The notes below the pieces were generated by a model. The model was given only the letters and a program-made list of their open reading frames with translations. It was not told where the DNA came from and made no database searches. Made by a program: the position numbers and the translations under genes. Shown piece after piece: positions 21,208-56,805 of a DNA stretch of 64,000 bases; positions within the stretch are counted from its first letter, which is position 1, and every line of letters starts with the position of its first letter. The stretch is from positions 118,778-182,777 of IMG/VR virus record IMGVR_UViG_3300044695_008209, one strand, 5' to 3'. Source of the stretch: a virus.

Positions 21208-22230
21208 ATGGACACCACACTCGTCGAGATCCTGGCTGCGCACGGGTCGGGCCGTATCAGCGCCGAGGGCGCCGCCCGGAGCGTGAAGCTGGCCAGCATG
21301 CTCGGGATGAAGAAGGAGGCCCTGAATCTCCCGCCGTCGGTGATGGCGGCCCTCGGCAAGCTCAACCCCAGCCAGTCGACGCGCGACGCCATGGTCCACG
21401 GGCTCGCGGCCAGCGGTGCGATCGGTGCTGCTGGGATGGGAGTGCACGCGCTCTCTTCCGGTGCTCGCGCGCTGACCGAGAGGTACTCCAAGAAGAAGGA
21501 CCTCGAGAAGATCCTCCAGACCTTCCCGCGTCTGCGGGAGTACCCGCAGGCCGAGATCGACCTCGCGTACAACTCCATCCGGCACATGAACCCTCACATC
21601 GCGAGCGACCCGCTCGCGGGCGGTTCCCTTCTCGGCCAGGTGCTGCGGCAGCGGGACTCGCTGGACCCCAAGACGCTGCGCATGGAGGTCGACCTCGCCG
21701 GGAACCTGCTGCGTCTCCGTCCGGAAGAGCAGCACATCGGCGAGGAGATCATGCGCGACGCCACGAGCGCCGGCATGGCGATGGGCTTCCAGGAGGCTGC
21801 CAAGGCGCGCGACCGCGCGCAGGCGGAGGCCTTCCAGTTCGGAGAGAACCAGAAGAACCGCGACGCCCAGAGTGCGCTGCAGACCCAGCAGCTGCGTGCT
21901 CAGGGCGGCATCGCCCAGGCCAACCTGAACCTCAAGAAAAAGGAGATGGCCAACCGCGTGAAGGAGATGGCCGCTGCGCGCGCCGCCTCTGAACGGGACT
22001 CGAAGACCGAGCACGGCCGTCGAATCTCCCTCGCCGAGCGGATGCAGACCTTCCAGCGGGAGGAGAACGAGAAGGGCCACAACCGGCAGGACGAGCGCCT
22101 CTTCCCGCAGGCAATCCTGCGCGGCGCCGTACTCAACGAGTACATGGACCCGCTGACAGGCCAGTCGATCCCGCCCTCCATCGGGGACGTTCAGCATCTC
22201 TACCCCAGCCTGCGCCGCTTCATGCCCTGA
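21208..22230 (+). CDS. Putative internal/core protein with long coiled coil
   Basis: 340 aa starting directly after the previous stop. Near the N-terminus VKLASMLGMKKEAL carries two K-x-A motifs, then a Gly/Ala-rich hydrophobic segment (about 65-90). Residues about 180-295 are a very polar Gln/Arg/Lys/Glu-rich helix (EAAKARDRAQAEAFQFG, LNLKKKEMANRVKEM) able to form a long coiled coil. This layout suits an internal core or ejection protein. It overlaps the protease gene by 1 nt (TGATG). It has no portal-like features that I can see. Confidence 0.5.
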   Translation: MDTTLVEILAAHGSGRISAEGAARSVKLASMLGMKKEALNLPPSVMAALGKLNPSQSTRDAMVHGLAASGAIGAAGMGVHALSSGARALTERYSKKKDLEKILQTFPRLREYPQAEIDLAYNSIRHMNPHIASDPLAGGSLLGQVLRQRDSLDPKTLRMEVDLAGNLLRLRPEEQHIGEEIMRDATSAGMAMGFQEAAKARDRAQAEAFQFGENQKNRDAQSALQTQQLRAQGGIAQANLNLKKKEMANRVKEMAAARAASERDSKTEHGRRISLAERMQTFQREENEKGHNRQDERLFPQAILRGAVLNEYMDPLTGQSIPPSIGDVQHLYPSLRRFMP

Positions 22231-24143
22231 TGGAGAAGTACTTCCAACTCCACGGGAAGACGGCCGAGGGCCGTCCTCTGATCCACCTGGTCGAGCCGGG
22301 CACCCGGTACGGCCTGGGTGCGTCTGCGGGGTTAGAGAAGGTCGCGGGCGGAGAGCACCTGCCGGAAGTGCTGGAGCTCATCGAGTCTATCCAGCCGCAG
22401 TCCGACCGGCTCTACCTCGTGAACAGCGCGCTGGGTGCGGGGGAGTACGTCGGGTTCAACCTCCGGGGCGACTGGTTCGGCGAGCGCGGCCTCCTCCACA
22501 CGCCACCCGGCTGGGACCGGATCCCTGTGTGGGACGTGGACGCGCGGCGGCGCGCGGCGAGTTCGACCGAGCGCGCTGGCGACTGGGGGATGCTCGCGTG
22601 GGGCTACCCCACGTTCATGAACGCCCACCGGTTCCGCCACCACGTGAACAAGGACCCCGAGAAGGCGTACGGCTACGTCCTCGGTGCGTTCTGGGACGCA
22701 CGCATGCACCGCGTGGTCCTTGTGTCGGAGCTGGTGCGTGAGATGTGCGCGCGCCTGGGGGCCGTCGACCTCTACGACCGGATCGCCGGCGGGGAGTTCC
22801 CGGACACCTCGATGGGCGCGAAGGTCCCGTACGATCGGTGCTCGATCTGCAACCACTACGCGCGCTCACCGGCCGACTATTGCCTGCACGTGCGCCAAGG
22901 CGCATCCCCTCCCTACGGGATGCGGGCGATCCTCGGCGACGGACGCATGTGCGGGGTCTACAACGACTACCCCCGCTTCTTCGACGACTCGTACGTCTTC
23001 ATCGGCGCGGAGCGATCCGCCAAGGTGATGGCCAACATCACCTCGCAGCTGAAGGGCACCCGCGCGTACACGAACCAGCTGTTCCAGCCGGGGGCGAGTC
23101 TCTCGACTCGTGAGGTGACCGCAGACGCTCCTGCCAGTCCGCTCGAGGAACGGAACGAGCGGCTCGGACTGGCCGTGGCAGGAGTCCTCAACTCCCGCGT
23201 TCGCGGTCCGAACGAGAGCCGTGTCAGCGAGGCCATCTCACAAGCGCTGTCGGCGGTGCCCGTCTCGAAGAATGACGCCGAGGCGAAGGCGATGCAGCAC
23301 GCCGAGGAGCTGCTGCGCCGGCGCGCCGCGGTCTCCGACCACACAGTTTCGGAGGACGAGCTCCGCTTCTGGGAGGGCAAGGCGTCGAGAGACCTGAGCG
23401 ATCGCCACAGCGTCACCACGGCCCAGCGGGACCGTGCAGTCGCCATCCTGCGCTCGCGCATGGACCAGATGGGCTCGACGGAGAAGCTCGGAACGCTCGC
23501 GAAGTGGGCCACCATGACGAAGCGGCTACCGGCACCGGACAGCACGCAGTACGCCCTGCTCCGCGACCACGTCGGACGCCTGACACCGGTTCTTCCGCAG
23601 CGCGTGTACGACGAGTGCAGTTCTTCGGTACCGGGCATGTGGCGAGGGCTGTCCGGACTGTCGGCCCTCGGGATCGTCCTTCGCCCCGAAGAGTTCCAGC
23701 AGTGCGCGCTGCGTGGCATGGGGGAGGACGCCCTGTCCGACCACTGCACGTTGGAGGGACTCCGGTTCCAGCCCACCCCGCGCGACCCGTACCATGAGCC
23801 CCGGTGGATTCCACACATCCCCGCCACCGGTGATCTACAGCGACTCGTACAGCTGCTCGGCTCCGTCCTGCAGGGACGCTCGTTTGCTCCGAGTGCGGTG
23901 CACGTACGGATCCTGACACCACCACCGCTCGTGGGTCCTCGATCCGAGCGCGTTGTGGATGAACCGGTCTTGAATCAGGTATCTCAGATGTACAACGACT
24001 ACCGGATGGGGTTGTTGGCGCGAGATGCCGACTGGAGCTATGTGCCTTTGGGTGCTCGTTCCGGTGCCTTCTCTCTCGACAGTAAGACCGCCGCCGCTGC
24101 CGATGCCGTCTCCGCACTTCTTCTTCATCTTGCACACTGGTAG
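22230..24143 (+). CDS. Probable prohead (capsid maturation) protease with zinc knuckle
   Basis: 637 aa. Residues 60-90 (LVNSALGAGEYVGFNLRGDWF) resemble the G-x-N-x-N-G-D-x-F region of T4 gp21-type/U35 proteases. NAHRFRHHVNKDPEKAYGYV (131-150) gives a candidate catalytic His (137/138). PDTSMGAKV (191-199) gives a candidate Ser (S194) in an S-x-G setting. CSIC (204-207) with YCLH (217-220) form a zinc-knuckle-like element also seen in related large-phage proteins. The C-terminal 350 residues are helical and unrecognised and may be a second module. Prohead proteases cleave scaffold and capsid proteins; the position before scaffold-like genes and the capsid gene fits. The third catalytic residue was not identified. 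Confidence 0.55.
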   Translation: MEKYFQLHGKTAEGRPLIHLVEPGTRYGLGASAGLEKVAGGEHLPEVLELIESIQPQSDRLYLVNSALGAGEYVGFNLRGDWFGERGLLHTPPGWDRIPVWDVDARRRAASSTERAGDWGMLAWGYPTFMNAHRFRHHVNKDPEKAYGYVLGAFWDARMHRVVLVSELVREMCARLGAVDLYDRIAGGEFPDTSMGAKVPYDRCSICNHYARSPADYCLHVRQGASPPYGMRAILGDGRMCGVYNDYPRFFDDSYVFIGAERSAKVMANITSQLKGTRAYTNQLFQPGASLSTREVTADAPASPLEERNERLGLAVAGVLNSRVRGPNESRVSEAISQALSAVPVSKNDAEAKAMQHAEELLRRRAAVSDHTVSEDELRFWEGKASRDLSDRHSVTTAQRDRAVAILRSRMDQMGSTEKLGTLAKWATMTKRLPAPDSTQYALLRDHVGRLTPVLPQRVYDECSSSVPGMWRGLSGLSALGIVLRPEEFQQCALRGMGEDALSDHCTLEGLRFQPTPRDPYHEPRWIPHIPATGDLQRLVQLLGSVLQGRSFAPSAVHVRILTPPPLVGPRSERVVDEPVLNQVSQMYNDYRMGLLARDADWSYVPLGARSGAFSLDSKTAAAADAVSALLLHLAHW

Positions 24144-24222: not shown

Positions 24223-25371
24223 ATGACCACCCTCGCCGACACCCTGGCCCAGCACAACATCAGCGCCGATGACCTGGAGAAGGCCGCGAGCGTGCGCATC
24301 TTCCAGAAGGTCGCGAGCGCCGAGAACATCGACCTCTCGCAGCTCGCGCCGGAGCAGCTCGAGGAGCTCTACGAGCACTTCGAGGCGAACGTCCTCCCGG
24401 CGATCGTCGGTGGTGGCGAGCCCACCACCGAGGCCAAGATCGCCTCGCTGAGCGAGGACGACCTCATCACCCTCTTCGACAAGCAGGCCAGCGCCGAGGG
24501 CCTCGACCTCTCCGGTGCGACCGAGGAGCAGCTCTCCGACGCGTTCGGCTTCTTCCTCGAGAACATCCTCCCGGTCATGGCCGAGAACGGCTTCGAGCCC
24601 GTCACCGCGGAGAAGAGCGCGGAGGTCGAGGAGGCCCAGGCCAAGCTCGCCGAGGCCGACATCCTCGGCCGTCAGATGGCGCGCGGCTACGCCGACGAGC
24701 TGGCCAAGATCGCCGCGACGGACGACCAGGGCAACTACTTCACGCAGGCGGCGAAGTCCAAGATCGTCGACGACGCGGGCAACGCAACGCACACTGGCCG
24801 CATGGGCAAGGTCAAGGACCTCGGGCTCTCGGCGCTGGGCAAGATGCGGCGCAACCCCAAGACCACCGCTGCTCTCGGAGTGGGAGCGCTCGCGGTAGGC
24901 GGAGGGGCGCTCGCACTCCGGAAGCACATGAAGGCCGAAAAAGAGACCACGGCCGGTGTGCAGCTCAGCGTCGAAGACGTGGAGATCCTCAGCCAGCTCG
25001 CCGACATCGGAGACGTGGCCGGGCTACAGAAGGCCGCGAGCCTCATCAAGAACGCGGCCGCGGGTGGCGAGATGGTGCACGTCCCGGGCAAGGGGTCAGC
25101 CCACACCATCAGCAACAAGCTCCGGCAGGGCGGAGAGGTCGCCCGCAAGGCGGTCACCGGCGGCTACGGACGCGGCGTGCAGGCAGCCACGATCGGCGGC
25201 GGCGCCGCTCTCGCCGCGGGCGGCGTTGGAGCCGCTCTCGCGCACCACATGAAGTCGAAGGCCTCCGAGGGGAAGGAGGCCACGGCCGACGCCGTCATCG
25301 ACGTTCTCGTCGAAGAACGGGCCACCGACCTCGCGGCTGAGTGGCTCGTGGCGAACGGCTACGGATCGTAG
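24223..25371 (+). CDS. Scaffold/core-like virion protein with internal repeats
   Basis: 382 aa. Residues 28-62 and 86-120 are a diverged tandem repeat (KVASAENIDLSQLAPEQLEE against KQASAEGLDLSGATEEQLSD, each ending in an acidic helix). The middle holds LGRQMARGYADELAKIAA, a segment common in large-phage virion proteins. Two Gly/Ala hydrophobic helices (about 210-232 and 325-345) end in ALRKHMK and LAHHMK. The acidic, helical, repeat-rich character and the position between protease and capsid genes suggest a scaffold or internal head protein. Cleavage at the K-x-A-S sites is a hypothesis. Confidence 0.55.
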   Translation: MTTLADTLAQHNISADDLEKAASVRIFQKVASAENIDLSQLAPEQLEELYEHFEANVLPAIVGGGEPTTEAKIASLSEDDLITLFDKQASAEGLDLSGATEEQLSDAFGFFLENILPVMAENGFEPVTAEKSAEVEEAQAKLAEADILGRQMARGYADELAKIAATDDQGNYFTQAAKSKIVDDAGNATHTGRMGKVKDLGLSALGKMRRNPKTTAALGVGALAVGGGALALRKHMKAEKETTAGVQLSVEDVEILSQLADIGDVAGLQKAASLIKNAAAGGEMVHVPGKGSAHTISNKLRQGGEVARKAVTGGYGRGVQAATIGGGAALAAGGVGAALAHHMKSKASEGKEATADAVIDVLVEERATDLAAEWLVANGYGS

Positions 25372-25376: not shown

Positions 25377-25574
25377 ATGTCGCTGCCCCAACTGACGGCA
25401 TTCGTGGACGAGGTCAGCAAGCTCGCTGGCCTCGCATCCCACCCTGCCATCGCGGGGGGCGCGACGAAGAAGCTGCTCAGCGCCACCACTGCTCCGGCGG
25501 TGTCGGGGCTCAAGCAGATCTCCAAGGCCACTTCTCCGGCGGCCCTCACCCCTCCCCCCAACATCTTCGCCTGA
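25377..25574 (+). CDS. Small protein with FxDExxKxA leader, 65 aa
   Basis: Starts 5 nt after the previous stop (GTG codons at 25371 and 25374 are alternatives). It opens MSLPQLTAFVDEVSKLAGLA, the clearest example of the leader form F-x-D-E-x-x-K-x-A that also begins the kinase-like and pyrophosphatase-like proteins. The rest is Ala/Thr/Pro-rich. It may be a head-packaged peptide whose leader is the packaging or processing signal. Confidence 0.5.
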   Translation: MSLPQLTAFVDEVSKLAGLASHPAIAGGATKKLLSATTAPAVSGLKQISKATSPAALTPPPNIFA

Positions 25575-25581
25575 GGCATCC

Positions 25582-28146: not shown

Positions 28147-28149
28147 TCT

Positions 28150-28168: not shown

Positions 28169-28222
28169 GGCATGCCTCCTACTCCACCCCCCACCAGACC
28201 ACTACTTCTTCTGAGGATCGCC

Positions 28223-29389
28223 ATGAACAGCAGCATCGACGGCACCAGCGCCCGCGACATGAACGCCGGGTTCGTCGAGCGGCTCGACACCGACGGCACC
28301 ACCAAGACCGCGGCCGAGTCGCTCAACTTCATCCGGGACCGCATCCGCGAGGGCAGCTTCACGGACATGATCGTGGCCAACGAGCGCGTCGTGCGTGGCG
28401 ATCTGCAGCGGTCCACCGAGCACGACACCCTCGTGAAGATCGTGGACATCGAGCCCGGTTCGCGGGCGATGGCGTTCACCTTCCGCGGCCAGCCCGACGC
28501 CCAGTACGTCACCGGCAAGCGCTTCGCGATCGGCTTCTTCACCGTCTCGAGCCTCAAGTTCGAGATCGTGGAGCAGGAGCTGATGGCCTACGAGATGCCG
28601 GTCACGCGCATCATCGAGGAGAACTCCCTCAAGGACATGGTCGAGGTCAAGGACCGCACGTTCCTCGTGCACACCGAGACCGCGGTCGAGGCCATGCAGG
28701 AGGAGGCGAACGGTTCCGTGGTCGGCTTCAACACCACCAACGTGAACTCGGGCGCCTGTCTCGAGGTCTCGAAGGTCAAGGGCAGCCTCGCGCTGCAGCA
28801 GGCCTCGGACACCTTCGTGGTCAAGGCGATCCAGCGCCCCGACATCGTCAAGATCAAGCGCCTCCTCAAGCGCGTGATCACCGACGGTTCCGGGAACGTG
28901 GTCCGCCAGGGCCGCCTGCGCCCCGAGGTCATGCTCGCCTGCGAGTCGGACATCGACGAGTTCGACAGCTGGACGCACGAGGACCTGGGCTCCAAGCTCC
29001 AGTCCGAGACCGCGGTCGACGGCTGGGCCTACAACAAGGCCGTCGGCCTTCGCATCGTGAAGACGATCAAGAACGACATCCTCCGCGAGGGGAACATCTA
29101 CGTCTTCACCAGCGCCCAGTACTTCGGGCGGAACTACACGCTGAACGACGTGAAGTTCTACATCGACAAGATCGCCAACCGGATCTTCTGGCAGGCGTGG
29201 ATGGACATCGGCATGGGCATCGCGAACATCGCCTCGGTGGTGAAGCTCGAGCTCTACTCCGGGTCCGTCACCAGCGGTGACACCGACAGCGGCTACGCCG
29301 CGGGCATCCCGGTCGAGATCGAGGACATGGGCGCGGTGAACAACAAGGTCGCCGAGGGCCTCACCTTCCCGCACATCAACCTCTACTGA
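28223..29389 (+). CDS. Major capsid protein
   Basis: 388 aa from ATG 28223 (GAGGATC upstream). After a polar leader containing TTKTAAESL (K28-A30) come ARVV-type helices and strands arranged as in HK97-fold capsid proteins of large phages: a long helix (NFIRDRIREGSF), FRGQPDAQYVTGKRFAIGF, the spine-like EIVEQELMAYEMPVTRIIEE, and a late beta/helix region ending NKVAEGLTFPHINLY. Support comes from size, position after protease, scaffold and decoration genes, and a strong terminator right behind. The leader could be removed in maturation; that is an inference. Confidence 0.75.
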   Translation: MNSSIDGTSARDMNAGFVERLDTDGTTKTAAESLNFIRDRIREGSFTDMIVANERVVRGDLQRSTEHDTLVKIVDIEPGSRAMAFTFRGQPDAQYVTGKRFAIGFFTVSSLKFEIVEQELMAYEMPVTRIIEENSLKDMVEVKDRTFLVHTETAVEAMQEEANGSVVGFNTTNVNSGACLEVSKVKGSLALQQASDTFVVKAIQRPDIVKIKRLLKRVITDGSGNVVRQGRLRPEVMLACESDIDEFDSWTHEDLGSKLQSETAVDGWAYNKAVGLRIVKTIKNDILREGNIYVFTSAQYFGRNYTLNDVKFYIDKIANRIFWQAWMDIGMGIANIASVVKLELYSGSVTSGDTDSGYAAGIPVEIEDMGAVNNKVAEGLTFPHINLY

Positions 29390-40948: not shown

Positions 40949-43423
40949 ATGCCGTTCGCCAGTGAGGCCCAGCGCCGCCTGCTCTGGGCCAAACACCCGG
41001 ATATCGCCAGGCGCTGGGCCCACGAGCCCGGCGCGAAGAACCGCGACCTCCCTCCGCACGTCAAGGAGGGCGCACGGCTCTTCTCCGAGCTCGGGCTGAA
41101 GCTCGCGGACATGATGCCAGCACCCCCGCAGTCCTCGCTGCGGCCAGGGGTGGAGTTCCGCCCTCACCAGGAGGACGCCATCCAGAAGGCGATGCGGCAG
41201 AACGGCAACCTGCTGCTCAGCCACCCTGTCGGCTCCGGCAAGACCGTGACGGCCATCGGTGCGTTCGACCGCCTGCGCCAGGCCGGGAAGGCCAACCGCG
41301 CGCTCATCGTCACCCCCGCGTCCCTGCGCAAGAACTTCACCGACGAGGGCGTCCACAAGTTCACCCACGACCACTGCACGGTGTTCGGAAACACACAGGA
41401 AGTGGCCGACGGGCAGGGCGTGAGCATCGACCAGCCGGACCCGAAGTCGCGCTACCACGTGGTCAGCTACGACCTCTTCCGAGAGCGCCCGGAGGCCTAC
41501 ATCCGGGCTGCTGGCGCCGACACCGTCATCTACGACGAGCTCCACAAGATCAAGAACATCGGCATCACGGGCAAGGCGCTGAAGGACGCCCGGAAGTTCC
41601 ACCGCAACTTCATCGGGCTCACTGGCTCCATCGTCAGCAACACCCCCGCAGACCTGGTGCCGCTCATCGACGCCATGACGGACGGGAAGCACCACCTCGG
41701 CACGAAGGAGAACTTCGAGCGCCGGTTCATGACGGACGACGGGAAGCTGCAGAACACGCCCATCGTGCGCATGCTGCTGAACCCCTACATCCACCACGTC
41801 GACGCCGCGACGAGCGCCGGCAACATGCCCGTGAAGGAGATGGAGACCGTCAAGGTCGACATGTCTCCCGAGCAGCAGGAGCTCTACCAGTACGTCGTGG
41901 GCAAGATGGACCCCATCACCGCCCTGAAGTTCCGGTTCGGCACGTCGAAGCTCAAGACCAACGACGTCAACAACATCTTCAGCAAGATGACCCAGGCGCG
42001 TCAGGTCTCGAACGCCATCCACACGGTCAACAAGTCCGTGACGCTCTCGGAGTCCGCCGAGCGTTCGCCTAAGATCAGGCGGATCCTGGATGACGTCGAG
42101 GACCACCTCAAGACCACGCCTGACGGGCAGGTCATCATCTACTCGAACATGATCCAGGGCGGCCTCGACGTCATCGGACAGGGCCTTCGGGACCGCGGCA
42201 TCGACCACGGCATCTTCATGGGCAAGGGTCAGCCCGGCTCCACAGAGAAGAGCCGCACCCAGGCCGTCTCGGACTACCAGGCAGGGCGGAAGAAGGTCAT
42301 CCTCCTCTCCTCCGCAGGCGGCGAGGGGCTGAACCTCGGCAACACCACCTTCGTGGCCAACGTGGACGGGCACTTCAACCCGGAGAAGATCCACCAGGCT
42401 GAGGCCCGCGGTGTTCGTGCAGGTGGCCAGGCGCACCGCCCCGAGGCCGAACGAAAGGTCATCGTCCGGAGGTACGTCACGAGGGTCCCGCTCTCGAAGA
42501 CGCAGGTCCTCAAGGACACGATGAACCTCATCTCCCCCAACCACATGATCAACCGCGTCATGGAGGGGCAGCCTGTCCTCTACAACCCCCTTCGACGCGA
42601 GCGCTCGCCGGATGAGTGGGCGTACGAGGTGGCCGGGCTGAAGGACGAGCGGAACAAGGCACTCCGCGGCAACCTCGACAAGAGCGGGGAGGCCCCGCTG
42701 CCCGACAACATCGAGGACATGCTGGACCTCCTCGAGGAGGGTGTCGTCGACCGCGCTGAGGATCCGGCACTCCCGCTGGTGAAGGAGGCCGCAGCGAAGA
42801 AGGACGTGAAGCAGGCGCGCCTCGCCGCGGCTCGCATCCCGATGCAGCCCCACCGCCTCGTCAAGTCCGACCGCATCGTGATGAACGCGTACATGAAAGA
42901 GTTCGCCCCCTACCTCGAGGAGGCCGTAGACCCGACGCAGGTCGATCTGCCGGCCGACAAGCAGCTCCGCGAGCAGGAGTACATCGACGCGCTTCGGGCC
43001 TACTACAGGGAGGCCGCCAAGAACACCGGCGGGTCCAGCTCGAAGGCGCTGACGGACGCGGAGCGGAAGAAGGAGGTCTGGAAGGACACGGCGCTCGTCG
43101 GCACGGTCGGCGGGATCTACGGGGGACTGCACGGCACGGTCCAGGCAGCAGCAGGTGGGATCCCCCTCAAGCACGTGCCCCTGTTAGGACTGGGCGGTGC
43201 GCTGTTCGTGGGTGGAACCCTGGCTGGCACCACCCTCTGGGACGGCATGCGCAACCCCGCGTTCAACACCCCCGCCGCACGTGCGCGGAAGACCAACAAG
43301 CTGACGGACGCCCAGATGGTCCAGCTCCTCCGCGGCCTCGAGGTGCAGCAGAAGGAGGAGAAGACCCACCGCTTCGCCGTCGGCGCCGCCCCTCGCGCAA
43401 CCACCGCCTCGATCCCCTCGTGA
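40949..43423 (+). CDS. SNF2-type helicase/ATPase with virion-association features
   Basis: 824 aa. The N-terminus MPFASEAQRRLLWAKHPDIA is a motif often found on phage virion proteins. FSELGLKLAD follows. The SF2 core has RPHQEDAI (71-78), Walker A HPVGSGKT (92-99), YDELHK as motif II (about 195-200), LTGSIVSN, SSAGGEGLNL (about 454) and QAEARGVRAGGQAHR as motif VI. The C-terminal 230 residues are non-helicase and include a Gly-rich hydrophobic segment (about 713-760). SNF2 enzymes move along DNA and remodel bound proteins. Lying between the tail tube and other decorated enzymes, it is more likely packaged and ejected than a replication helicase; that is an inference. Confidence 0.78.
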   Translation: MPFASEAQRRLLWAKHPDIARRWAHEPGAKNRDLPPHVKEGARLFSELGLKLADMMPAPPQSSLRPGVEFRPHQEDAIQKAMRQNGNLLLSHPVGSGKTVTAIGAFDRLRQAGKANRALIVTPASLRKNFTDEGVHKFTHDHCTVFGNTQEVADGQGVSIDQPDPKSRYHVVSYDLFRERPEAYIRAAGADTVIYDELHKIKNIGITGKALKDARKFHRNFIGLTGSIVSNTPADLVPLIDAMTDGKHHLGTKENFERRFMTDDGKLQNTPIVRMLLNPYIHHVDAATSAGNMPVKEMETVKVDMSPEQQELYQYVVGKMDPITALKFRFGTSKLKTNDVNNIFSKMTQARQVSNAIHTVNKSVTLSESAERSPKIRRILDDVEDHLKTTPDGQVIIYSNMIQGGLDVIGQGLRDRGIDHGIFMGKGQPGSTEKSRTQAVSDYQAGRKKVILLSSAGGEGLNLGNTTFVANVDGHFNPEKIHQAEARGVRAGGQAHRPEAERKVIVRRYVTRVPLSKTQVLKDTMNLISPNHMINRVMEGQPVLYNPLRRERSPDEWAYEVAGLKDERNKALRGNLDKSGEAPLPDNIEDMLDLLEEGVVDRAEDPALPLVKEAAAKKDVKQARLAAARIPMQPHRLVKSDRIVMNAYMKEFAPYLEEAVDPTQVDLPADKQLREQEYIDALRAYYREAAKNTGGSSSKALTDAERKKEVWKDTALVGTVGGIYGGLHGTVQAAAGGIPLKHVPLLGLGGALFVGGTLAGTTLWDGMRNPAFNTPAARARKTNKLTDAQMVQLLRGLEVQQKEEKTHRFAVGAAPRATTASIPS

Positions 43424-43429
43424 GCTCCG

Positions 43430-44536
43430 ATGATCCAGCAACAGTGGGCCTCCTTTAGCGACGAGATCCTGAAGACCGCGGCGACGCGCCAGGTGAAGGA
43501 GATGCGGAAGCTCTACGAGGGGACCAAGTCCTCCGACCCGCGTGTAGCGGCCGCAAGCGAGGCGAAGTTGAAGGGGCTCGCGCAGCGGCTCTACGGCGCC
43601 GGCGTGCAGAAGGACAGTCCTGGTGGGATCCAGGCCGACCGCAAGTTGCAGATGCTGGGCCGGGGGAACGAGGGCGTGGCGGTGCCGGTGCTCGGACCGC
43701 ACGGGGTGGAGGTACGCAAGCAGTACGACCCCAAGTCCCAGCTCTGGAGTCCGTCGATGCAGAAGGACAAGGCGGAGCTCCTTCGGAACTCGAACCCCAA
43801 GCACGTCGCGCAGCTTTACGGCCACCACTCCTCTCCGGACTTCGACATCCACCGCATGGAGCTCGTGAAGGGGAAGGACCTCAAGCAGGCGATCAAGGAG
43901 CTGCCCGACGGAGGGCGTTTCCCTTCTGCGGAGGGAAATCGGCTCGGGGAGCAGGTGCGCGGTGTCGTACCGCACCTCGACGCTGCGGCACACAAGGCGG
44001 GCCTGTCCGGACACCGCGACGCTGCCTGGCACGAGGGAGGGCAGTTCAAGTACAACCCCGGCAACATCAAGATCCAGCCGGACGGGACGGCGAAGGTCAT
44101 CGACGTGCTGCCCACGCGCCAAGTCCCTGCGAACTACCACACTGCTCCCGGACGCCTGGAGCCGATGGACGCGCACAAGGCGCACTTCCCTGGTGGGATT
44201 CCGGCCCAACACGGGGAGACCCCGCTCCTCGACCTGACCAAGAAGCTGGGTCCCGGCTCCAGGCAGGCACCCAAAGGCATCCCGATGAGTGCGTCTAAGC
44301 TGCCGCCCGGAACGCCCCTCCCGGCGACGGGAGTGCCCATCCGCGGTCCCGCTCCTCCGCGCCCGGGCACCCCGCAGATCAAGTCGTTCATGGGTCGCTG
44401 GGGCCCGGGGCTAAGAAAGGCAGCCCCGTGGGCTGCCGGGGCTGCTGGTGTCGCGGGAGCAGGGCTACTCGCGCATCACTTCCTGAAGCGGAACGTCCCG
44501 GAGGAGCGTGGAGCCGGCGGCCCAGCGCCGGTGTAG
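43430..44536 (+). CDS. Kinase-like virion-type protein
   Basis: 368 aa. Leader MIQQQWASFSDEILKTAATR has the F-x-D-E-x-x-K-x-A form. Residues 70-230 follow a protein-kinase plan: Gly-rich loop GRGNEG (77-82), VRK (K97), hinge-like RMELVKG (142-148), HRD at 195-197, N209/N212 in YNPGN, and D225 in KVIDV as DFG-like aspartate. The spacing HRD to Asn is longer than the usual five residues. A Pro-rich linker and a Gly/Ala hydrophobic helix ending LLAHHFLKR close the protein. Active kinase or phosphotransferase function is plausible but unproven. Substrates unknown. It follows the SNF2 gene by 6 nt. Confidence 0.6.
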   Translation: MIQQQWASFSDEILKTAATRQVKEMRKLYEGTKSSDPRVAAASEAKLKGLAQRLYGAGVQKDSPGGIQADRKLQMLGRGNEGVAVPVLGPHGVEVRKQYDPKSQLWSPSMQKDKAELLRNSNPKHVAQLYGHHSSPDFDIHRMELVKGKDLKQAIKELPDGGRFPSAEGNRLGEQVRGVVPHLDAAAHKAGLSGHRDAAWHEGGQFKYNPGNIKIQPDGTAKVIDVLPTRQVPANYHTAPGRLEPMDAHKAHFPGGIPAQHGETPLLDLTKKLGPGSRQAPKGIPMSASKLPPGTPLPATGVPIRGPAPPRPGTPQIKSFMGRWGPGLRKAAPWAAGAAGVAGAGLLAHHFLKRNVPEERGAGGPAPV

Positions 44537-44665
44537 CTCTCGGATGAGGTCCTCCCAGGACATCCGGGTGAACTTCGGGTTCGTGAGCAGGAACTCGACG
44601 ACGGCGTCGGGCACCTGCTCCATGTCCTCCTTCGTGGGATACTGGCCGAGCGGAACGGGTTCCAT
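44465..44665 (-). CDS. Small antisense-overlapping protein, 66 aa
   Basis: Lies opposite the end of the kinase-like gene (72 nt overlap). GGAGGTG is 8 nt before ATG 44665 and a CATAAGG element is just upstream, so all expression signals are present. The sequence is protein-like (MEPVPLGQYPTKEDMEQVPD, FTRMSWEDLIRELHRRW). No family was recognised. It is the only - gene inside the long + block. Confidence 0.45.
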   Translation of the reverse strand: MEPVPLGQYPTKEDMEQVPDAVVEFLLTNPKFTRMSWEDLIRELHRRWAAGSTLLRDVPLQEVMRE

Positions 44666-44684
44666 GATGAATCACCTCCAGTAC

Positions 44685-44690
44685 CTTATG
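44685..44690 (-). promoter_or_regulatory. CATAAG element upstream of the 66-aa gene
   Basis: CATAAG followed by GTACTGG on the - strand, 20 nt before ATG 44665. No A-rich -35 partner was seen at the usual distance, so this is the weakest member of the set. Confidence 0.22.
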
Positions 44691-44727
44691 ACCAGGAACC
44701 GAGGTAAGTACCTCCCCAGGAGCGCGC

Positions 44728-47001
44728 ATGGATGACCTCGCAGACCTCGTCAGCAAGACCGTGCACTGGTCTGCGTTCGGTGACGAGATCCGGAAGCACG
44801 CCGGCACCGTCGAGGTCGCCCACAACTTCCACCCCGTCACAGTGCAGCCCCCGCAGGCGAAGCGCGCGAAGTTCCCGTTCACCGGCTTCATCGACTTCCA
44901 GGGCCTGAAGATCGACGTCGAGAACAAGAAGGGCGAATACCGTCGCGGCAAGGACAGGGACGGCCACGAGTGGAAGTGCCTCATGCACGCCCACTACGGC
45001 GAGATCCGGAACACCGAGGGCACCGACGGGGACAAGCTCGACGTCTACGTCGGCCCGAACCACGACTCCAGCCTCGTGGTGGTCGTACGGCAGCACAAGC
45101 CGGATACCGGCGCCTTCGACGAGGACAAGGTGATGGTCGGCTTCGACTCTGTGGAGGAGGCCGTCGGCGCCTACAAGAAGCAGTACGACAAACCCGGGTT
45201 CTACAAGGACGGAGACTACAAAGCCCTGCCCATCGGAGAGTTCTGGCGCTGGGTCCACGATCGCGACAACCACGGGAAGAAGGTGGCCGGAGTCCTGGAC
45301 GGACTCACGGTGAAGACGGCCGCGGATCTCCCTGACATCGTTCGCCCGGCGATCCGCCCGGAGATCCGGGAGTTCGCCCTGCACCCGCACCTCCAGAAGG
45401 GCCTCGCGGGAGCTGCCGCACTCGGAGGGCTGGCCGCAGGGTACCGTGCCCACCGGAACGCGCGGGCGAAGGAGCTGGAGACGGGGGAGCCCAGCACGGG
45501 CAAGCACGTGCTGGAGGGCGGAGCCGCCGGCGTCCTCGGAGGAGCAGGACTCGGAGCAGCGGCAGCGGTCGGCTCCAAGGACGCGCTCGAGAACGTCAAG
45601 CGGCAGGCCGCGCCCAGCGCCAAGTACGTGGCGCAGATGGCGCAGAAGCTCCGCGCTGACGGCAAGTCGATGCCGGAGATCAAGGCGATCCTCAGGGGAC
45701 GCGGGTTCGCCCAGCACTTCCAGAACGCCCACATCGGCTACCAGGCACACGTCCTCCAGGGGAAGATCCACACCGGAAAGGCCGCACTGGTGGGCGCTGC
45801 CGGTCTCGGCCTGCTGGGCGCAGGGGCCGCCGGCCTCAACGCTCACTTCAACAAGGACGAGAACCGCTCTGACCTCCGGGCCACGCAGCGCCGTCTCCAG
45901 GTTGGGCGCTACGCTCCACCCAAGGAGGCGTCTGCCGGCGCCGGCGCGAACGTGCTCGCGGATCTCGGGGACGCCGCGCGAACCGGCGCGAAGGATCTCA
46001 CCATCGCGGCTCGGAACAAGATGCAGAAGACGTCGCCGCCCCACTACGCGCCCCCGCGTCCGCACGTGCAGGTGGCGCCCTCTCCCTGGTCGAAGGGTGC
46101 CGGGGTGCTGGCCAAGCTCGCTGGCTCCAAGCTCCGCATGGCCACGCAGATCGCGGAGGAGGCACCTGGTCGATGGGCCATGTCCCTGGGGGGCCGCGTC
46201 ATCGGACGCATGTCGACATCAGGGAACCAGATCCGGGGAGTGCGCATCCTCGACCCCAAGCTGCAGGGGTTGGGACTGGGCCGGAAGTTCTACGGAGAAG
46301 TGGCGCGTCGTATGCCCGGACAGACGCTGCACAGTGACATGCAGGTTTCGGACAAGGCGACCCGCCTCTGGGACTCGTTACGCGCCGAGCACGGCTGGAA
46401 GCCGACAATACATCCGTGGACGCACCGCGAAGCGGAAGGAGGGGTGGTCTCAACTCTCACAAAGCAGCCTTGGCACGAGGGACATACTCCGGAGATCGAC
46501 GCTCTCCGTGCTGGCTCCGGATTCGCCCGCCCGCCTGCGTACTCGGCATCGCTACCTGCCGCAAGCAAGGTCGCCTGCGCCTTCTCGCAGGAAAAGCGGG
46601 CCACCGAGCTGCCGGGCGTCGGTGATGAGGGAGAGCGCCCGCACGTGCCTGGGCTGAAGACGCCACGCCTGGCCACGCCGCGCCTGAACCCCGACCAGGG
46701 GAAGCACATCCCGGTCAACCCGTTCCGCGGCAACTGGCGGAAGCTGGGCGGAGCCGAAACTGTCGCTCACGAGGCCGGAGAGGCCGCTCGCAACCTGGTG
46801 GCGGCCATTCCAGAGGACGTGAAGCACGGCCTCCTTGGGGCAGCCCTCGTGGGCGCCGGCGCTCTGGGGCTAAAGGCGACCGCCTCCCAGGCGATCAACC
46901 CCCGCCCTGAAGGTGTCGGCTTAGGCGCTGGAGCGCGAGCCGGCCAGAAGGTTCTGACGCTCGGACTCTCTCGGGCTGGTTCGGGGCCCGTGCAGTATTA
47001 G
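44728..47001 (+). CDS. Polyvalent-type protein: pyrophosphatase-like domain plus GNAT
   Basis: 757 aa. The leader contains WSAFGDEIRKHAG. Residues 59-178 match the inorganic-pyrophosphatase-like domain of polyvalent proteins: GLKIDVENKKGEYRRGKD, HAHYGEIRNTEGTDGDKLDV with D100, D102 and D105, then FDEDKVMVGFD and EFWRWVHD. Gly/Ala hydrophobic helices lie at about 228-245, 350-370 and 710-730, one ending GLNAHFNK. Residues about 470-570 look like a GNAT acetyltransferase: LDPKLQGLGLGRKFYGEV (acyl-CoA loop) and SDMQVSDKATRLWDSL. Polyvalent proteins are large multi-domain proteins thought to enter the host with phage or plasmid DNA. Activity of either domain is untested. Confidence 0.68.
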   Translation: MDDLADLVSKTVHWSAFGDEIRKHAGTVEVAHNFHPVTVQPPQAKRAKFPFTGFIDFQGLKIDVENKKGEYRRGKDRDGHEWKCLMHAHYGEIRNTEGTDGDKLDVYVGPNHDSSLVVVVRQHKPDTGAFDEDKVMVGFDSVEEAVGAYKKQYDKPGFYKDGDYKALPIGEFWRWVHDRDNHGKKVAGVLDGLTVKTAADLPDIVRPAIRPEIREFALHPHLQKGLAGAAALGGLAAGYRAHRNARAKELETGEPSTGKHVLEGGAAGVLGGAGLGAAAAVGSKDALENVKRQAAPSAKYVAQMAQKLRADGKSMPEIKAILRGRGFAQHFQNAHIGYQAHVLQGKIHTGKAALVGAAGLGLLGAGAAGLNAHFNKDENRSDLRATQRRLQVGRYAPPKEASAGAGANVLADLGDAARTGAKDLTIAARNKMQKTSPPHYAPPRPHVQVAPSPWSKGAGVLAKLAGSKLRMATQIAEEAPGRWAMSLGGRVIGRMSTSGNQIRGVRILDPKLQGLGLGRKFYGEVARRMPGQTLHSDMQVSDKATRLWDSLRAEHGWKPTIHPWTHREAEGGVVSTLTKQPWHEGHTPEIDALRAGSGFARPPAYSASLPAASKVACAFSQEKRATELPGVGDEGERPHVPGLKTPRLATPRLNPDQGKHIPVNPFRGNWRKLGGAETVAHEAGEAARNLVAAIPEDVKHGLLGAALVGAGALGLKATASQAINPRPEGVGLGAGARAGQKVLTLGLSRAGSGPVQY

Positions 47002-47158
47002 ACAGGACGACCCCGGTCTCCGGGTCGTAGACACCCTCGTCTGCGATCGCCAGCTCCACCAGGAGCTCGAGCACCTCCTCCGGTCGCACGCGACGGCCCG
47101 CGTCCCTCGAGAGGGCACGGGCCGTACGTTCCAAGAAACGGCCGTGGTGTGGCTTCAC
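46895..47158 (-). CDS. Small protein overlapping the polyvalent gene end, 87 aa
   Basis: GTG 47158 overlaps the stop of the macro-domain gene (GTGA), which argues for a coupled last gene of the - operon. Residues 1-52 look structured (RFLERTARALSRDAGRRVRP, EEVLELLVELAIADEGVYD); the rest overlaps the + strand gene by 107 nt and is less protein-like. The ending is therefore uncertain. Confidence 0.4.
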   Translation of the reverse strand: MKPHHGRFLERTARALSRDAGRRVRPEEVLELLVELAIADEGVYDPETGVVLSNTARAPNQPERVRASEPSGRLALQRLSRHLQGGG

Positions 47159-47628
47159 CGACGCCCCGGCGTGAAGTCGTAGACGAAGATCGGCAGGTCC
47201 CCGAACACGCTGTCGAGGATGGCCTCTACGACATGCCAGTCTCCACCAGCGAGCCCGCACCCGATGCGCGGCATCCCGACCTTCGGCCAGACCCGTCTGG
47301 CCGCGAGCAGCCAGCTGCAGAAGCTCGTCATGCCGCGCTCGATCGCAAGGTAGTCCGCGTACACCGCGCCCGGTCCACCACCTCCGCAGTCGTACTGGCT
47401 GTAGAGGTTGACGATCCACAGTCGGCCCCCGACGACAGGCACCGGCTGCATCGTTCCGAGCTTCTGCACGTCTCCGCGCCGGGTGTAGCAGTCAGCCTCG
47501 TACACCGAGGGAAACTGCTGCTTGATCTGTAGCGCGATGCCAGCGCCGAAGGTGCAGAAGCAGTTGCAGCCGTGCACCAGGACCTTGCAATCGGATGCGA
47601 GGAGATCCCCCTTGACGTACGTGATCAT
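47155..47628 (-). CDS. Macro domain protein (ADP-ribose binding/hydrolysis)
   Basis: 157 aa, a stand-alone macro domain; AGGAGAG precedes the ATG. Motifs: YVKGDLL (4-10), VHGCNCFCTFGAGIA (18-32) forming the ADP-ribose pocket, YTRRGDVQKLG, VNLYSQYD, and MPRIGCGLAGGDW near the C-terminus as in Poa1p/TARG1-like phosphatases and deacylases. Macro domains bind or hydrolyse ADP-ribose derivatives. In a phage this could reverse ADP-ribosylation or remove NAD-derived signals of host defence; that role is an inference. Confidence 0.82.
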   Translation of the reverse strand: MITYVKGDLLASDCKVLVHGCNCFCTFGAGIALQIKQQFPSVYEADCYTRRGDVQKLGTMQPVPVVGGRLWIVNLYSQYDCGGGGPGAVYADYLAIERGMTSFCSWLLAARRVWPKVGMPRIGCGLAGGDWHVVEAILDSVFGDLPIFVYDFTPGRR

Positions 47629-47637
47629 GCCACTCTC

Positions 47638-48120
47638 CTACTTCTTCTCTGCCGGCGGTGCCTTGCGCTTGTGGTTCCTCGGGGTCAGCGTCAGCGCACC
47701 GACGATGACGCTGAAGCGCCGCTTCCCGGACTCGAGCAGGGTCTGGGTAGGCGCCGTGTCCGCGTCGTAGATCTTCTCCTCCGGCACCATCCCGGGCGCC
47801 AACGGCACCGTGCTGATGGTGGTGCCGTTGGGGAAGGTCTTCCGCTTGATGCTGTGCTTCGGGAAGAACCGGTACTTCAGGCGGCGTGGGGTCGCGCGCA
47901 GCCACGCGTACACCGACCACGCCAGGGCCTGGAAGCGCGTCGCTCGGAAGACTGTCTCCTGCATTCGCTGGAGGTCCTTGACCGCGTGGTTCTTGTCGTC
48001 CTGCGCGTACTCCAGCGCCGACCAGGCCCACGCCTTCGCGCCCTCCAGCCCGAAGTTCGGGTCCGCGACCATCTCGTCGAAGGTCTCGTGGAACTCCTTC
48101 TCGTCTACGTCCCAGCTCAT
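47638..48120 (-). CDS. Hypothetical protein, 160 aa
   Basis: GAGGAGCG upstream of ATG 48120 and ATGA overlap with the preceding gene. The first 85 residues are helical and Trp/Ala-rich (GAKAWAWSALEYAQDDKNH, ALAWSVYAWLRATPRRLK), the rest basic and Pro/Lys-rich with TLTPRNHKRK. No family recognised. Confidence 0.48.
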   Translation of the reverse strand: MSWDVDEKEFHETFDEMVADPNFGLEGAKAWAWSALEYAQDDKNHAVKDLQRMQETVFRATRFQALAWSVYAWLRATPRRLKYRFFPKHSIKRKTFPNGTTISTVPLAPGMVPEEKIYDADTAPTQTLLESGKRRFSVIVGALTLTPRNHKRKAPPAEKK

Positions 48121-49016
48121 GACTCACGCTCCTCGAACCGTGTGCACTCGCATTCAGTGTGGTGGCCGCGGCAGGGGCCGAGGCGCTTGTCGGGGTCGTT
48201 CTTGCGGTAGTGGAAGTCGATGGCGTGCCCGCAGGTGGCGCAGTGGGGCGTGCCCTGCACTTCCTGCTGGTACTCCGCGCCGAAGGCGCCCATCACACTC
48301 CCGCAGCGCAGCGCCATCCCGCTGGAGGAGAAGTTGGTCGGCCCCTCCAGGAACTCCTTTGGGACGCCCAGGAGACCGAGCAGTTCCCGCTTCCTTGCCT
48401 CCGGCCAGAACACCTGCAGGTCGTCCTCTCCCTGCCCGATGTCTTGAGCGGTTCCTCCACCAGGCAGAGTGAACTCGGTGGTGATCTTGATGTCCGTACC
48501 CCTCATGTCGATACTGTGCGCGACAGCGACGTTCCTCGTGAAGGCGGTGTCGTCGATCTCACGCAGCCCAGCAAGACTTTCGCCGGACCACTCCTGTGCC
48601 TCCTCGTAGGCGGTGTTCACGGGGTCGACACCGCCCCCTCCGCTCCACGGCGTCTCCCTGAAGATCCTGTCGGCCTCCACGACCACGGCGACCGGCCGGG
48701 GTGGGAACTGCCCGTAACGATGCACCTCCCGCTCCGGCATCGAATCCATCTCGAAGATCCTGAAGCGGGGCTCCCGCATGGGCGCTGGAGTCACCGACTC
48801 GATGATGAAGGGTGCCTCGGTCGCGCGCTCGACCTTCAGGCCCGGGAACATCTCCGTCGCCGACCGGAGGCTCTCCGGACGCGGCACCGGCGGAGTCGGT
48901 GCCTTCCCGCACGACGGGCAGGTCGACCTCGACCCGTACACGCCCTCTGGTCCAGAGAGCCGGTGCAGGAACTCCGTGCCGCAGAACTCGCACGGGCGCC
49001 GCGTGACGACGCTCAC
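48117..49016 (-). CDS. Protein with terminal zinc-binding elements, 299 aa
   Basis: The N-terminus contains CEFCG (9-13) and CPSCG about 20 residues on, a zinc-ribbon pair. The C-terminus contains CATCGHAIDFHY, CRGHH and CEC, a second possible site. Between them is a mixed alpha/beta region (EKVERA-like strands, REIDDTAFTRNVAVAHSIDM, ITTEFTLPGGG). No catalytic motif was recognised. The start overlaps the upstream stop (ATGA). Confidence 0.5.
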   Translation of the reverse strand: MSVVTRRPCEFCGTEFLHRLSGPEGVYGSRSTCPSCGKAPTPPVPRPESLRSATEMFPGLKVERATEAPFIIESVTPAPMREPRFRIFEMDSMPEREVHRYGQFPPRPVAVVVEADRIFRETPWSGGGGVDPVNTAYEEAQEWSGESLAGLREIDDTAFTRNVAVAHSIDMRGTDIKITTEFTLPGGGTAQDIGQGEDDLQVFWPEARKRELLGLLGVPKEFLEGPTNFSSSGMALRCGSVMGAFGAEYQQEVQGTPHCATCGHAIDFHYRKNDPDKRLGPCRGHHTECECTRFEERES

Positions 49017-49363
49017 AGGAGTGCCAGCAGCACGTGGTGCATGTTCTCACGAGGCTCACCGGCCTCCAGGCGCCGGCGGACGAGCGAGATCAGTTCCTCC
49101 AGCCCGTCGATAATCTTCCAGCTCAGCCAGTGTCCCCTGGCCTCGTACTCACCGAGCTCCGGCCCGCGCCAGTTCCCCTTCTCGTCCTTCCAGACGAAGA
49201 CGTACTGGTCTCCTGCGACGATCCACTGCTCGCGACGGACCACCGCCGGGTCGCCGACCTGCACGTCGTCCGGAGCTTCCTCGCAGGTGTCGGCGCCGTC
49301 GGACTTGACGAAGAGCACGGCCTTCCAGCCGTCGATGTTGAGTTGATCCATGAAGTCGGTCAT
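49013..49363 (-). CDS. Hypothetical protein, 116 aa
   Basis: First gene after the terminator at 49389. TTTAGGGG precedes ATG 49363. The sequence is mixed, Trp-rich (WKAVLFVKSDGAD, WIVAGDQYVFVWKDEKGNW) with a helical C-terminus (IDGLEELISLVRRRLE). It overlaps the next gene by ATGA. Unrecognised. Confidence 0.48.
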   Translation of the reverse strand: MTDFMDQLNIDGWKAVLFVKSDGADTCEEAPDDVQVGDPAVVRREQWIVAGDQYVFVWKDEKGNWRGPELGEYEARGHWLSWKIIDGLEELISLVRRRLEAGEPRENMHHVLLALL

Positions 49364-49388
49364 GTAGCCCCTAAAGGAACAAGCGGGA

Positions 49389-49414
49389 GGCCCCCTCTCT
49401 CACGAGAGGGGGCC
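49389..49414 (-). terminator. Hairpin terminator between - strand transcription units
   Basis: GGCCCCCTCTC (49389-49399) and GAGAGGGGGCC (49404-49414) pair perfectly around TCAC, 10 nt after the end of the 139-aa gene. On the - strand the downstream side is C/T-rich without a clear U-run. Confidence 0.7.
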
Positions 49415-49423
49415 CGGTTGATC

Positions 49424-49843
49424 TCAGCCCAGAGACTCGCGGCGCTTCTTCAGCTCCTCGAGCGGCAGCTCCTTCTCCTCGCGGCCCTGGATGAGGGCGT
49501 CGAGGCGGTCGCGCTCCGACTTCGCGGCCGCGGCCACGGTCCTGGCCTTGTTCTCCTCCTGGCGGATCCTCGCGACCTCACGCAGGATGCTGACCTGCAG
49601 GGTCACCTGCACCAACTCCGCCGAGGGCGCGGTCGCGTCGGAGAGGATGCTCTCCCCGCGCAACTTGGTGAGGTCGTTCTGCCGGGCCAGCAGCGGTGCC
49701 CCGATGTTCTCGAGGGAGGGCTTCTTGGGGCTCTCCGCCGTCAGCGGGAGATCCCACAGGTCCTCGATGGTGAGCTGCCCGACGACGCTCGGGAAGCGCA
49801 GCCGCGCGCGGCTGGCCTGCAGGAAGATGTTGTTGATGTCCAT
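49424..49843 (-). CDS. Conserved phage protein, 139 aa
   Basis: From ATG 49843 (GAGGAG about 10 nt upstream); frames extending further upstream overlap the next gene and are not protein-like. The opening INNIFLQASRARLRFPSVVG and LTIEDLWDLPLT are hallmarks of a small conserved phage family of unknown function. A coiled-coil C-terminal half follows (VSILREVARIRQEENKA). It lies 14 nt downstream of the 664-aa gene. Confidence 0.55.
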   Translation of the reverse strand: MDINNIFLQASRARLRFPSVVGQLTIEDLWDLPLTAESPKKPSLENIGAPLLARQNDLTKLRGESILSDATAPSAELVQVTLQVSILREVARIRQEENKARTVAAAAKSERDRLDALIQGREEKELPLEELKKRRESLG

Positions 49844-49857
49844 GGTGATCTCGCTCC

Positions 49858-51852: not shown

Positions 51853-51898
51853 GTTGACCTCGATGACGAGAGTGATGCTGCCTGTTGACAGCACCACT

Positions 51899-51927
51899 CT
51901 TATGCGAGGAAAGACGCCTGTTTTCTA
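51899..51927 (-). promoter_or_regulatory. CATAAG-class promoter candidate
   Basis: On the - strand TAGAAA, 17 nt, CATAAG followed by AGTGG, 47 nt before ATG 51852. It starts at the stop codon of the Nudix gene, separating two transcription units. Confidence 0.4.
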
Positions 51928-52605
51928 CGACGCTCCGGTACCGTCCATGTAGCGCGCTTCGAGCGCGATCAGGAAGTAGGGGAGGGAGGGGGTCATCTCC
52001 TCTGGCGTGAGCTGCTGGAGCTCGGTGAGGAGCTGCCACCTGTGGCCTCGGTGGGATCGAGGGTCTACCCGGAGCGCCCCCGAGGCCATCACCTCGTAGA
52101 GGGAGACGACGAACCGCCGTCCGTGGGGGTTCGTGAGGACGGGTGTCCGCGTGAGGAGGTTCCCCACGACCGCCTCAACGCCCAGCTCCTCGCGGAGCTC
52201 GCGACGCAGGGCTTCCTCGTGCGTCTGATCCTCCTCGACCTTCCCGCCCGGCATCTCCCACAGCCCGTCGTAGTCCCCGACGCGCTGCGCGGTGAAGAAC
52301 GCCCCTGCAGCGTTCCGCAGGCACCCCGCCACCACCTCGATGACGGGAAGCCGGCTCAGCGCCTGGCGGAGCTCGCTCGCGTGGTGTGCCTCGAGTTCTG
52401 GCAAGAACTTCGCCCAGCACTCGTCGCAGGCGAAGCTCTCTACCACCGACATTTTCACCTGCGTCCCAGGCAGGCTGTAGAGCTTCGTCGGCTCATAGAG
52501 CCGGCTTTTCGCTGGCCGCTTGCAACTGTACGGCGTGCCCAGGCGAGGGCGATGACAGGGATGCTCACCCTGTCCGTCCCACCCACATCGACAAGTTGGG
52601 TTCAT
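51925..52605 (-). CDS. Nudix hydrolase with Cys-rich N-terminus
   Basis: 226 aa from ATG 52605 (ATGA overlap with thyX). Residues 1-63 hold C5, C7, C17, C28 and CDEC (60-63), a probable zinc-binding head. Residues 88-215 are a Nudix fold: IEVVAGCLRN strand, FFTAQRVG, and the box GGKVEEDQTHEEALRRELREE ending LG-V (120-143). The usual first Glu of G-x5-E is Gln127, while the R-E-x-x-E-E core (135-140) is intact. Nudix enzymes cleave nucleoside diphosphates linked to another moiety. Next to ThyX a nucleotide clean-up role is likely; NAD or ADP-ribose substrates are possible. Confidence 0.78.
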   Translation of the reverse strand: MNPTCRCGWDGQGEHPCHRPRLGTPYSCKRPAKSRLYEPTKLYSLPGTQVKMSVVESFACDECWAKFLPELEAHHASELRQALSRLPVIEVVAGCLRNAAGAFFTAQRVGDYDGLWEMPGGKVEEDQTHEEALRRELREELGVEAVVGNLLTRTPVLTNPHGRRFVVSLYEVMASGALRVDPRSHRGHRWQLLTELQQLTPEEMTPSLPYFLIALEARYMDGTGAS

Positions 52606-53510: not shown

Positions 53511-53815
53511 GGGATCTCCTTGGCCACACAGAGGCGGCGCGGTTCGTTGGGACCCTCGACCACCATGAGGCGGTAGCCGGGGCAGTAGTACATGAAGAGG
53601 TCGTTCAGGATGCCGAAGGCCGAGACCTCGAGCATCCCCTCCTCGCCGCTTCGACACACGACCTTGGCGCCACCGTTCCGCGCGCTCTCCATCTCATCCC
53701 GGAACGTGAGGGCAAGCCCTTCAGCCGCTCCAGCCCCGTCCCGTACCCGATCACGTGTACGGAAGAGGCTCTCGTCCACCTCGTCGGGGATGCTGTCGAG
53801 TTTCTCGAGTTTCAT
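53507..53815 (-). CDS. Hypothetical protein, 102 aa
   Basis: Coupled on both sides (ATGA with the upstream gene, GTGA with thyX). An acidic helical start (LEKLDSIPDEVDESLF) is followed by a compact alpha/beta domain (AKVVCRSGEEGMLEVSAFG, YYCPGYRLMVVEG). No family recognised. Confidence 0.48.
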   Translation of the reverse strand: MKLEKLDSIPDEVDESLFRTRDRVRDGAGAAEGLALTFRDEMESARNGGAKVVCRSGEEGMLEVSAFGILNDLFMYYCPGYRLMVVEGPNEPRRLCVAKEIP

Positions 53816-56390: not shown

Positions 56391-56581
56391 GCCGACTCCT
56401 GGAGCTCGTTGAAGAGGGTGAAGAAGCGCTCGCGCGCTTCCAGTGGGGAGAGGGGCACGATGGTGTACTCGAGCGCCGGCGGCAGGCTCGCCCACGCGCG
56501 GACGCGCTTCCCCTCCCACGAGGTGTGCGGCATCAGGTCTCGCTTCTCGGTGGCCAGTACCTCATTGTCCGCGAGGTGCAT
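56387..56581 (-). CDS. Small protein between AAA+ and VWA genes, 64 aa
   Basis: ATG 56581 follows the upstream stop directly; ATGA overlap with the VWA gene. Contains a mixed N-terminal part (LADNEVLATEKRDLMPHTSW) and an amphipathic helix (SPLEARERFFTLFNELQ). Unrecognised; probably part of the same unit. Confidence 0.42.
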   Translation of the reverse strand: MHLADNEVLATEKRDLMPHTSWEGKRVRAWASLPPALEYTIVPLSPLEARERFFTLFNELQESA

Positions 56582-56782: not shown

Positions 56783-56805
56783 CTACGCCCCCTCTCCGTG
56801 GATGA

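Follow-up and report, generated by a model that had tools for sequence, protein, structure and literature searches.

What is known of how large phages select the proteins that they package and inject comes mostly from mass spectrometry on T4 and a few jumbo phages. In T4, the internal proteins IPI-III and Alt carry a capsid-targeting sequence (CTS) of ten residues that both targets these proteins and is cleaved (PMC9026906), is thought to bind the prohead core and also delivers foreign fusions into heads (PMC9026906). The ejection proteins of SPN3US and phiKZ are likewise head cargo, with N-terminal propeptides cut by the prohead protease; these are mostly longer than 100 residues and the cleavage motif is AxE (PMC5694885). 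Polyvalent proteins show predicted or known virion packaging and domain swapping, and SNF2, kinases without a C-lobe, GNAT and InPase are listed together in their literature (Iyer et al. 2017, PMC5512222); the InPase domain is also known as a fusion to minor head or portal proteins. In the published virion mass spectrometry of Salmonella phage Arash, gp217 was detected with 38 unique peptides and full coverage; its 1148 spectra make it seventh of 116 proteins, next to 1333 for the capsid protein, 1210 for RNA polymerase (RNAP) beta' and 3516 for beta, the most abundant of all. The data set includes gp10 and also replication enzymes, and its authors allow that some enzymes are carry-over.

Here we describe a myovirus locus with three consecutive genes for an SNF2 ATPase, a kinase-like protein and an InPase-GNAT protein. 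We consider it probable that all three are virion cargo, recruited to the head core by a ten-residue tag and ejected with the DNA. The tag is like the T4 CTS in its length of about ten residues, in its N-terminal position and in being common to unrelated proteins; it differs in sequence, in occurring also internally and at the C-terminus, in sitting on far more, and more diverse, proteins, and in that its targeting and cleavage are functions that we infer. The propeptides of SPN3US and phiKZ are longer, and AxE stands against LxKxA here. With polyvalent proteins (PMC5512222) the locus has the domain repertoire in common, although here the domains are spread over several proteins of medium size and not joined in a single giant chain (InPase plus GNAT on one chain, SNF2 plus GNAT in the related record L012, the kinase alone), no MPTase domain was seen, and there is a recognisable tag, which that paper does not mention. 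The virion set of Arash (gp217, gp206 and gp216) is a parallel from a related myovirus that shares the capsid, tube and RNAP genes and packages an SNF2 homologue, but Arash is without the tag, and no comparable kinase or InPase-GNAT gene was found in the Arash stretches read.

Three enzyme genes downstream of the tail tube gene

The window, that is, the whole stretch of 64,000 nucleotides that was analysed, covers positions 118778-182777, the right-hand end, of a virus record of 182,777 bp. Its plus strand contains a myovirus structural module, running from the terminase through the head, sheath and tube genes to the three enzyme genes (Table 1), downstream of which the strand switches. The sequence-only reading had placed an SNF2-type ATPase, a kinase-like protein and a pyrophosphatase-like/GNAT fusion, in this order, behind the tube gene; the ORFs are confirmed, with gaps of 9, 6 and 191 nt (tube/SNF2, SNF2/kinase and kinase/InPase), and all three assignments are borne out below. 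Its comparison with polyvalent proteins is apt, all four domain types being present in that literature.

The tail tube is conserved across 37 viral loci, and the nearest cultured relatives found, by tube, capsid and terminase, are Arash and Vibrio phages D69, D148 and D181. The sheath protein of the window is far above the usual length, its relatives ranging from about 1000 to 1521 residues. An ORF of about 2100 residues for the RNAP beta subunit lies just left of the window (G000 112319-118630). The minus strand of the window encodes a macro-domain protein, a 679-residue phrog_1735 protein of unknown function and ThyX (47155-53657), and a MoxR-like AAA ATPase beside a weak VWA-domain protein (54462-57846). 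A host look-up among genome contigs returned two MAG contigs, both uninformative.

Table 1. Positions in the window of the structural genes, enzyme genes, domains and tags.
Feature	Position	Strand	Basis or remark
Terminase	16240-18105	+	
Head genes	20025-29389	+	
Predicted head maturation protease	22230..24143	+	phrog_18299 4e-5; conserved gene order 5' of capsid gene
Scaffold-position head protein, LxKxA-rich	24223..25371	+	after the protease gene and before the capsid gene; LxKxA at 6 sites
Internal tag YADELAKIA	24688..24714	+	conserved patch of scaffold-position protein
Small tagged head-cluster protein (FVDEVSKLA)	25377..25574	+	
Major capsid protein, start codon approximate	28250..29389	+	homologous to gp226, the major capsid protein of Arash
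Predicted tail sheath, 1508 aa	34193..38719	+	Phage_sheath_1C C-terminal match weak (E=0.023); directly 5' of tube region; L004 homologue
Tail tube protein, 233 aa	40238..40939	+	homologue of Arash gp237 (virion structural protein)
SNF2 ATPase ORF, 824 aa	40949..43423	+	
QRR module MPFASEAQRRLLWAKHPDIARRW...LPPHV	40949..41077	+	sequence
Degenerate tag FSELGLKLA, SNF2 residues 45-53	41081..41107	+	
Kinase-like ORF, 368 aa	43430..44536	+	
Tag FSDEILKTA, kinase residues 9-17	43454..43480	+	
InPase-GNAT ORF, 757 aa	44728..47001	+	
Tag FGDEIRKHA, InPase-GNAT residues 17-25	44776..44802	+	
InPase domain, DGDKLDVYV signature	44881..45255	+	PF18823 3e-39; acidic residues invariant
GNAT cassette	46123..46551	+	AF2 and Foldseek to GNATs

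By its domains, the first of the three proteins is certainly an SNF2 ATPase: it matches Pfam SNF2-rel_dom (5e-17) and Helicase_C (2e-11) and contains a Walker A motif, GSGKT, and DExH. Its closest homologue in the phage collection searched, regarded as an orthologue, is Arash gp217 (tblastn to the gp217 region, 30.5%, 2e-44). The N-terminal phage motif that had been noticed on it is present as the QRR module, with a match to phrog_1375 at E=0.018 only, and recurs on InPase proteins (L037, L038), another SNF2 protein (L104), a J-domain protein (L149) and small tagged proteins (L088, L126), but it is missing from the two nearest SNF2 orthologues, those of L003 and L012, and was rejected as an essential mark of the SNF2 protein. 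The pattern F..LG.KLA of the degenerate tag is retained in both orthologues despite divergence of the remaining N-terminus.

The kinase-like protein gave no match in a Pfam search alone. Its relatives in other phages (L278/L292, L293, L294 and L295) have in common a glycine-rich loop, a lysine and the Asp...Asn...Asp residues; K97, D197, N212 and D225 are invariant in the alignment, and a profile of five sequences matches PknA/StkP (1.6e-8). The match of this profile to the PDB ends near the activation loop, which fits the polyvalent-protein kinases described without a C-terminal subdomain. The AF2 model (pLDDT 39) is too poor to serve as proof and was dropped as a query for fold searches. The sequence fits a truncated Ser/Thr-kinase-like protein with a shortened C-lobe.

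In the third protein, the match to the phage-type InPase family makes the identity of the InPase domain certain. The GNAT part has no Pfam match. Its AF2 model, built together with two relatives from L012, has a confident core and only moderate confidence overall; when it was compared with the PDB by Foldseek, GNATs came out on top, with RimI best (2.6e-4, probability 1.0), and the acetyl-CoA loop of GNATs (Q/RxxGxG/A) is present as QGLGLG.

The ten-residue tag and its carriers

The consensus of the tag is [A/S]-F-x-D-E-L-x-K-I-A, ten residues of amphipathic character that usually lie within the first 20 of the protein and beyond which the information content drops. The F-x-D-E-x-x-K-x-A leaders reported for the kinase-like and InPase proteins were found again, and in the 182-kb record the motif is present in four likely genes, those of the three enzymes (the SNF2 form being degenerate) and that of the small head-cluster protein. 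In the proteins of 32 related loci, a strict motif, F.[DE]E[LMIVF].[KR].A, was counted 19 times within the N-terminal 60 residues and a single time outside them, where shuffles give 0.03 and 0.10. A DNA pattern of the tag has 57 matches in 21 of the 32 related records, against 0 for a reversed-pattern control, and positions left free by the pattern are also conserved (A, S or F before the F, and I or L before the final A).

Run alone against the viral collection, the DNA pattern matched at least 120 stretches. Among the matches listed, the same tail tube is encoded in 30 of the 40 records picked by the pattern and in all 23 of those longer than 125 kb; because pattern-selected records mostly encode the same tube, the tag appears to be a hallmark of one lineage. 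It is absent from Arash. A literature search found no description of such a tag, which does not prove that there is none.

As in T4, a short N-terminal peptide is thus found on unrelated proteins, here putative cargo: among the matches listed there are 225 unique tagged proteins, forming 137 clusters (115 of them singletons) once the tag is masked, and the tag lies within 20 residues of the start in 183 of these, is internal in 21 and near the C-terminus in 4. The last two groups, 25 of the 225 among the matches listed, are unlike a cleaved N-terminal signal. A few of the 225 are chance matches; a transketolase (L179) and a tape measure protein (L154) were rejected as such. Domains on tagged proteins include SNF2, InPase, permuted papain-like amidase, DUF5661, sigma-70, GNAT, DNA ligase, glyoxalase, DnaJ and NlpC/P60. 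Each of the classes of our three enzymes is independently tagged in other genomes: the canonical tag is present on SNF2 proteins in L095, L120, L132 and L235, and a kinase-like homologue in L278 and an InPase in L289 are tagged as well. In L267, four genes in a row are tagged or nearly so: the first product is an SNF2 protein with a near-canonical tag ending in KEA, and with it come a HELGH peptidase and a pair of proteins without assigned function. L099 (630-1403) encodes a tagged sigma-70-like factor homologous to Arash gp10. Judged from these sequences, the three enzymes are members of a much larger tagged class and not a set of their own, and the best reading of the tag is that of a T4-like signal for capsid targeting, borne by swappable effectors of the polyvalent type.

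Some arrangements of the tag are unusual. J-domain-like proteins with a C-terminal tag are encoded in L094 (1449-1958) and L149 (10959-12065), and in L126 (9164-11542) the tag lies between ATP-dependent-ligase-like and NlpC/P60-like domains. Tandem small tagged proteins in L128 (638-3367) and G063 (31732-33905) have near-identical leaders, MNFQ.AFFDELEK.A, and different bodies.

Gly/Ala hydrophobic helices had been proposed as a further mark of all three enzymes. A simple threshold is passed by the SNF2 protein (1 segment) and the InPase protein (3), not by the kinase-like protein, and hydrophobic or transmembrane segments are not enriched (52 of 225 tagged proteins, compared with 81 in a background matched for length, spurious ORFs included), so that transmembrane helices were rejected as a mark of cargo.

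Exchange of cassettes among relatives

The SNF2 protein of L003 is 84% identical to that of the window. No kinase gene is present between the SNF2 and InPase genes of L003, and none is recognisable elsewhere in its record; its InPase protein is without the GNAT block and retains the tag as FADELGKQA. In L012, InPase and kinase are missing, one GNAT domain resides in the SNF2 linker and a second in a protein of 1273 residues, which retains a near-canonical tag (FGDELQKLG) and both ends of the InPase protein. The three-gene order is therefore not fixed in related phages, and the three genes do not form a constant set, the kinase gene and GNAT being missing in L003 and InPase and kinase in L012. 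As far as these sequences tell, the locus undergoes cassette exchange on a constant chassis. In the place of InPase, L012 (10715-17785) has an ART-like stretch (YHGTTAESAARIREQGL) that was recognised by eye only, with no Pfam or PDB support, and GNAT occurs there twice in tagged-chassis proteins.

Head genes and the proposed packaging and injection

The order of protease, scaffold-position protein, small tagged protein and next head gene is conserved. The scaffold-position protein contains a conserved tag-like patch, Y-x-D-E-x-x-K-[IV]-[AG], and in the small head-cluster protein, aligned from eight genomes, conservation is concentrated in the tag and in a C-terminus rich in proline. The same peptide is thus present in head-core proteins, a feature that we add to the comparison and that is not stated for T4. 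LxKxA is found 38 times in the head proteins of Arash (5.9 in shuffles), 36 times in those of D69 (5.8) and 19 times in those of the window (4.4), with no excess in tail, RNAP or minus-strand genes; the three phages are divergent. The capsid proteins of Arash and D69 have one copy about 25 residues from the start; as a predictor of virion presence among the Arash proteins read, an N-terminal LxKxA is borderline (p 0.05-0.06). By sequence, L-x-K-x-A, with which the tag ends, recurs as a scattered motif in core- or scaffold-like head proteins; it may be a cleavage site of the prohead protease or else an element that docks to the core.

Several tagged genes flank neck, sheath and tube genes (the three enzymes; L014-L020, L043 and L047), as would be expected if the tag sorted proteins to the tail or neck and not to the head. 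This is distinctly unlikely, given that the tag and LxKxA occur in head-cluster proteins, that LxKxA is unenriched in tail proteins, that many tagged genes are far from tail genes and that the tail lumen normally holds the tape measure.

In the Arash stretches searched, just two tagged families, the sigma factor of L099 and SNF2, are represented by homologues, in each case a virion protein. The packaging proposed by the sequence-only reading is well supported by sequence and, for SNF2, the one class with documented virion presence of a homologue, also by the mass spectrometry of gp217; this comes from untagged Arash, so packaging of gp217 needs no tag. The degenerate state of the tag on the SNF2 protein of the window, the internal and C-terminal tags and the possible carry-over of enzymes in the Arash data likewise count against our reading. 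That the available spectra are those of an untagged phage, and that the tagged proteins include many small, lineage-restricted ones, would also suit ordinary late intracellular proteins that are not packaged and whose leader is a signal for localisation, assembly or degradation. Such a role is very improbable, however: both families with homologues in the Arash stretches searched are abundant in its virions, the tag is present in head proteins, and tag and tube gene share a strand in 114 cases and are on opposite strands in 7 (hand tally).

RNAP beta is encoded in all 16 tagged-lineage genomes tested, the present record included, and in Arash, where the SNF2 gene directly follows that of beta' and both products are abundant in virions; one tagged protein, moreover, is a sigma factor. 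The tag could accordingly dock proteins to the multi-subunit RNA polymerase of the phage, as whose passengers they would enter the virion. We regard this as unlikely, because the tag is also present in the scaffold-position and small head-cluster proteins, LxKxA is unenriched in RNAP, most tagged proteins are without a link to transcription, and Arash has the polymerase and not the tag. Since RNAP beta accompanies the tag in these genomes and the Arash SNF2 gene follows beta', the SNF2 protein itself probably serves the injected polymerase or the incoming DNA, and action on host chromatin is no more likely than such a role beside the polymerase of the phage.

If the tag is an address for the head, as we prefer to read it, it would bring cargo to the inner core while the head assembles, in the manner of the T4 CTS; the cargo might be trimmed at the prohead stage and would be ejected together with the DNA at infection. 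The SNF2 ATPase would then most likely act on the entering DNA together with the multi-subunit RNA polymerase of the phage. By analogy with the polyvalent-protein literature, the kinase, pyrophosphatase and GNAT domains may be exchangeable effectors directed against host proteins or nucleotides.

On balance, we lean towards the view that, in one lineage of large myophages, an address label legible in the sequence and shared with the head core allows almost any protein to become virion cargo, so that the whole injected arsenal can be listed from sequence and is exchanged by cassette. If true, the list would comprise SNF2 and sigma proteins for the polymerase, kinases, pyrophosphatases, acetyltransferases, peptidases, a ligase and J-domain proteins. 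The tag would supply a defined peptide for tests of head targeting and of cleavage by the prohead protease, and, being a sequence-level mark, would allow injected proteins, including those without recognisable domains, to be predicted in many uncultivated phages.
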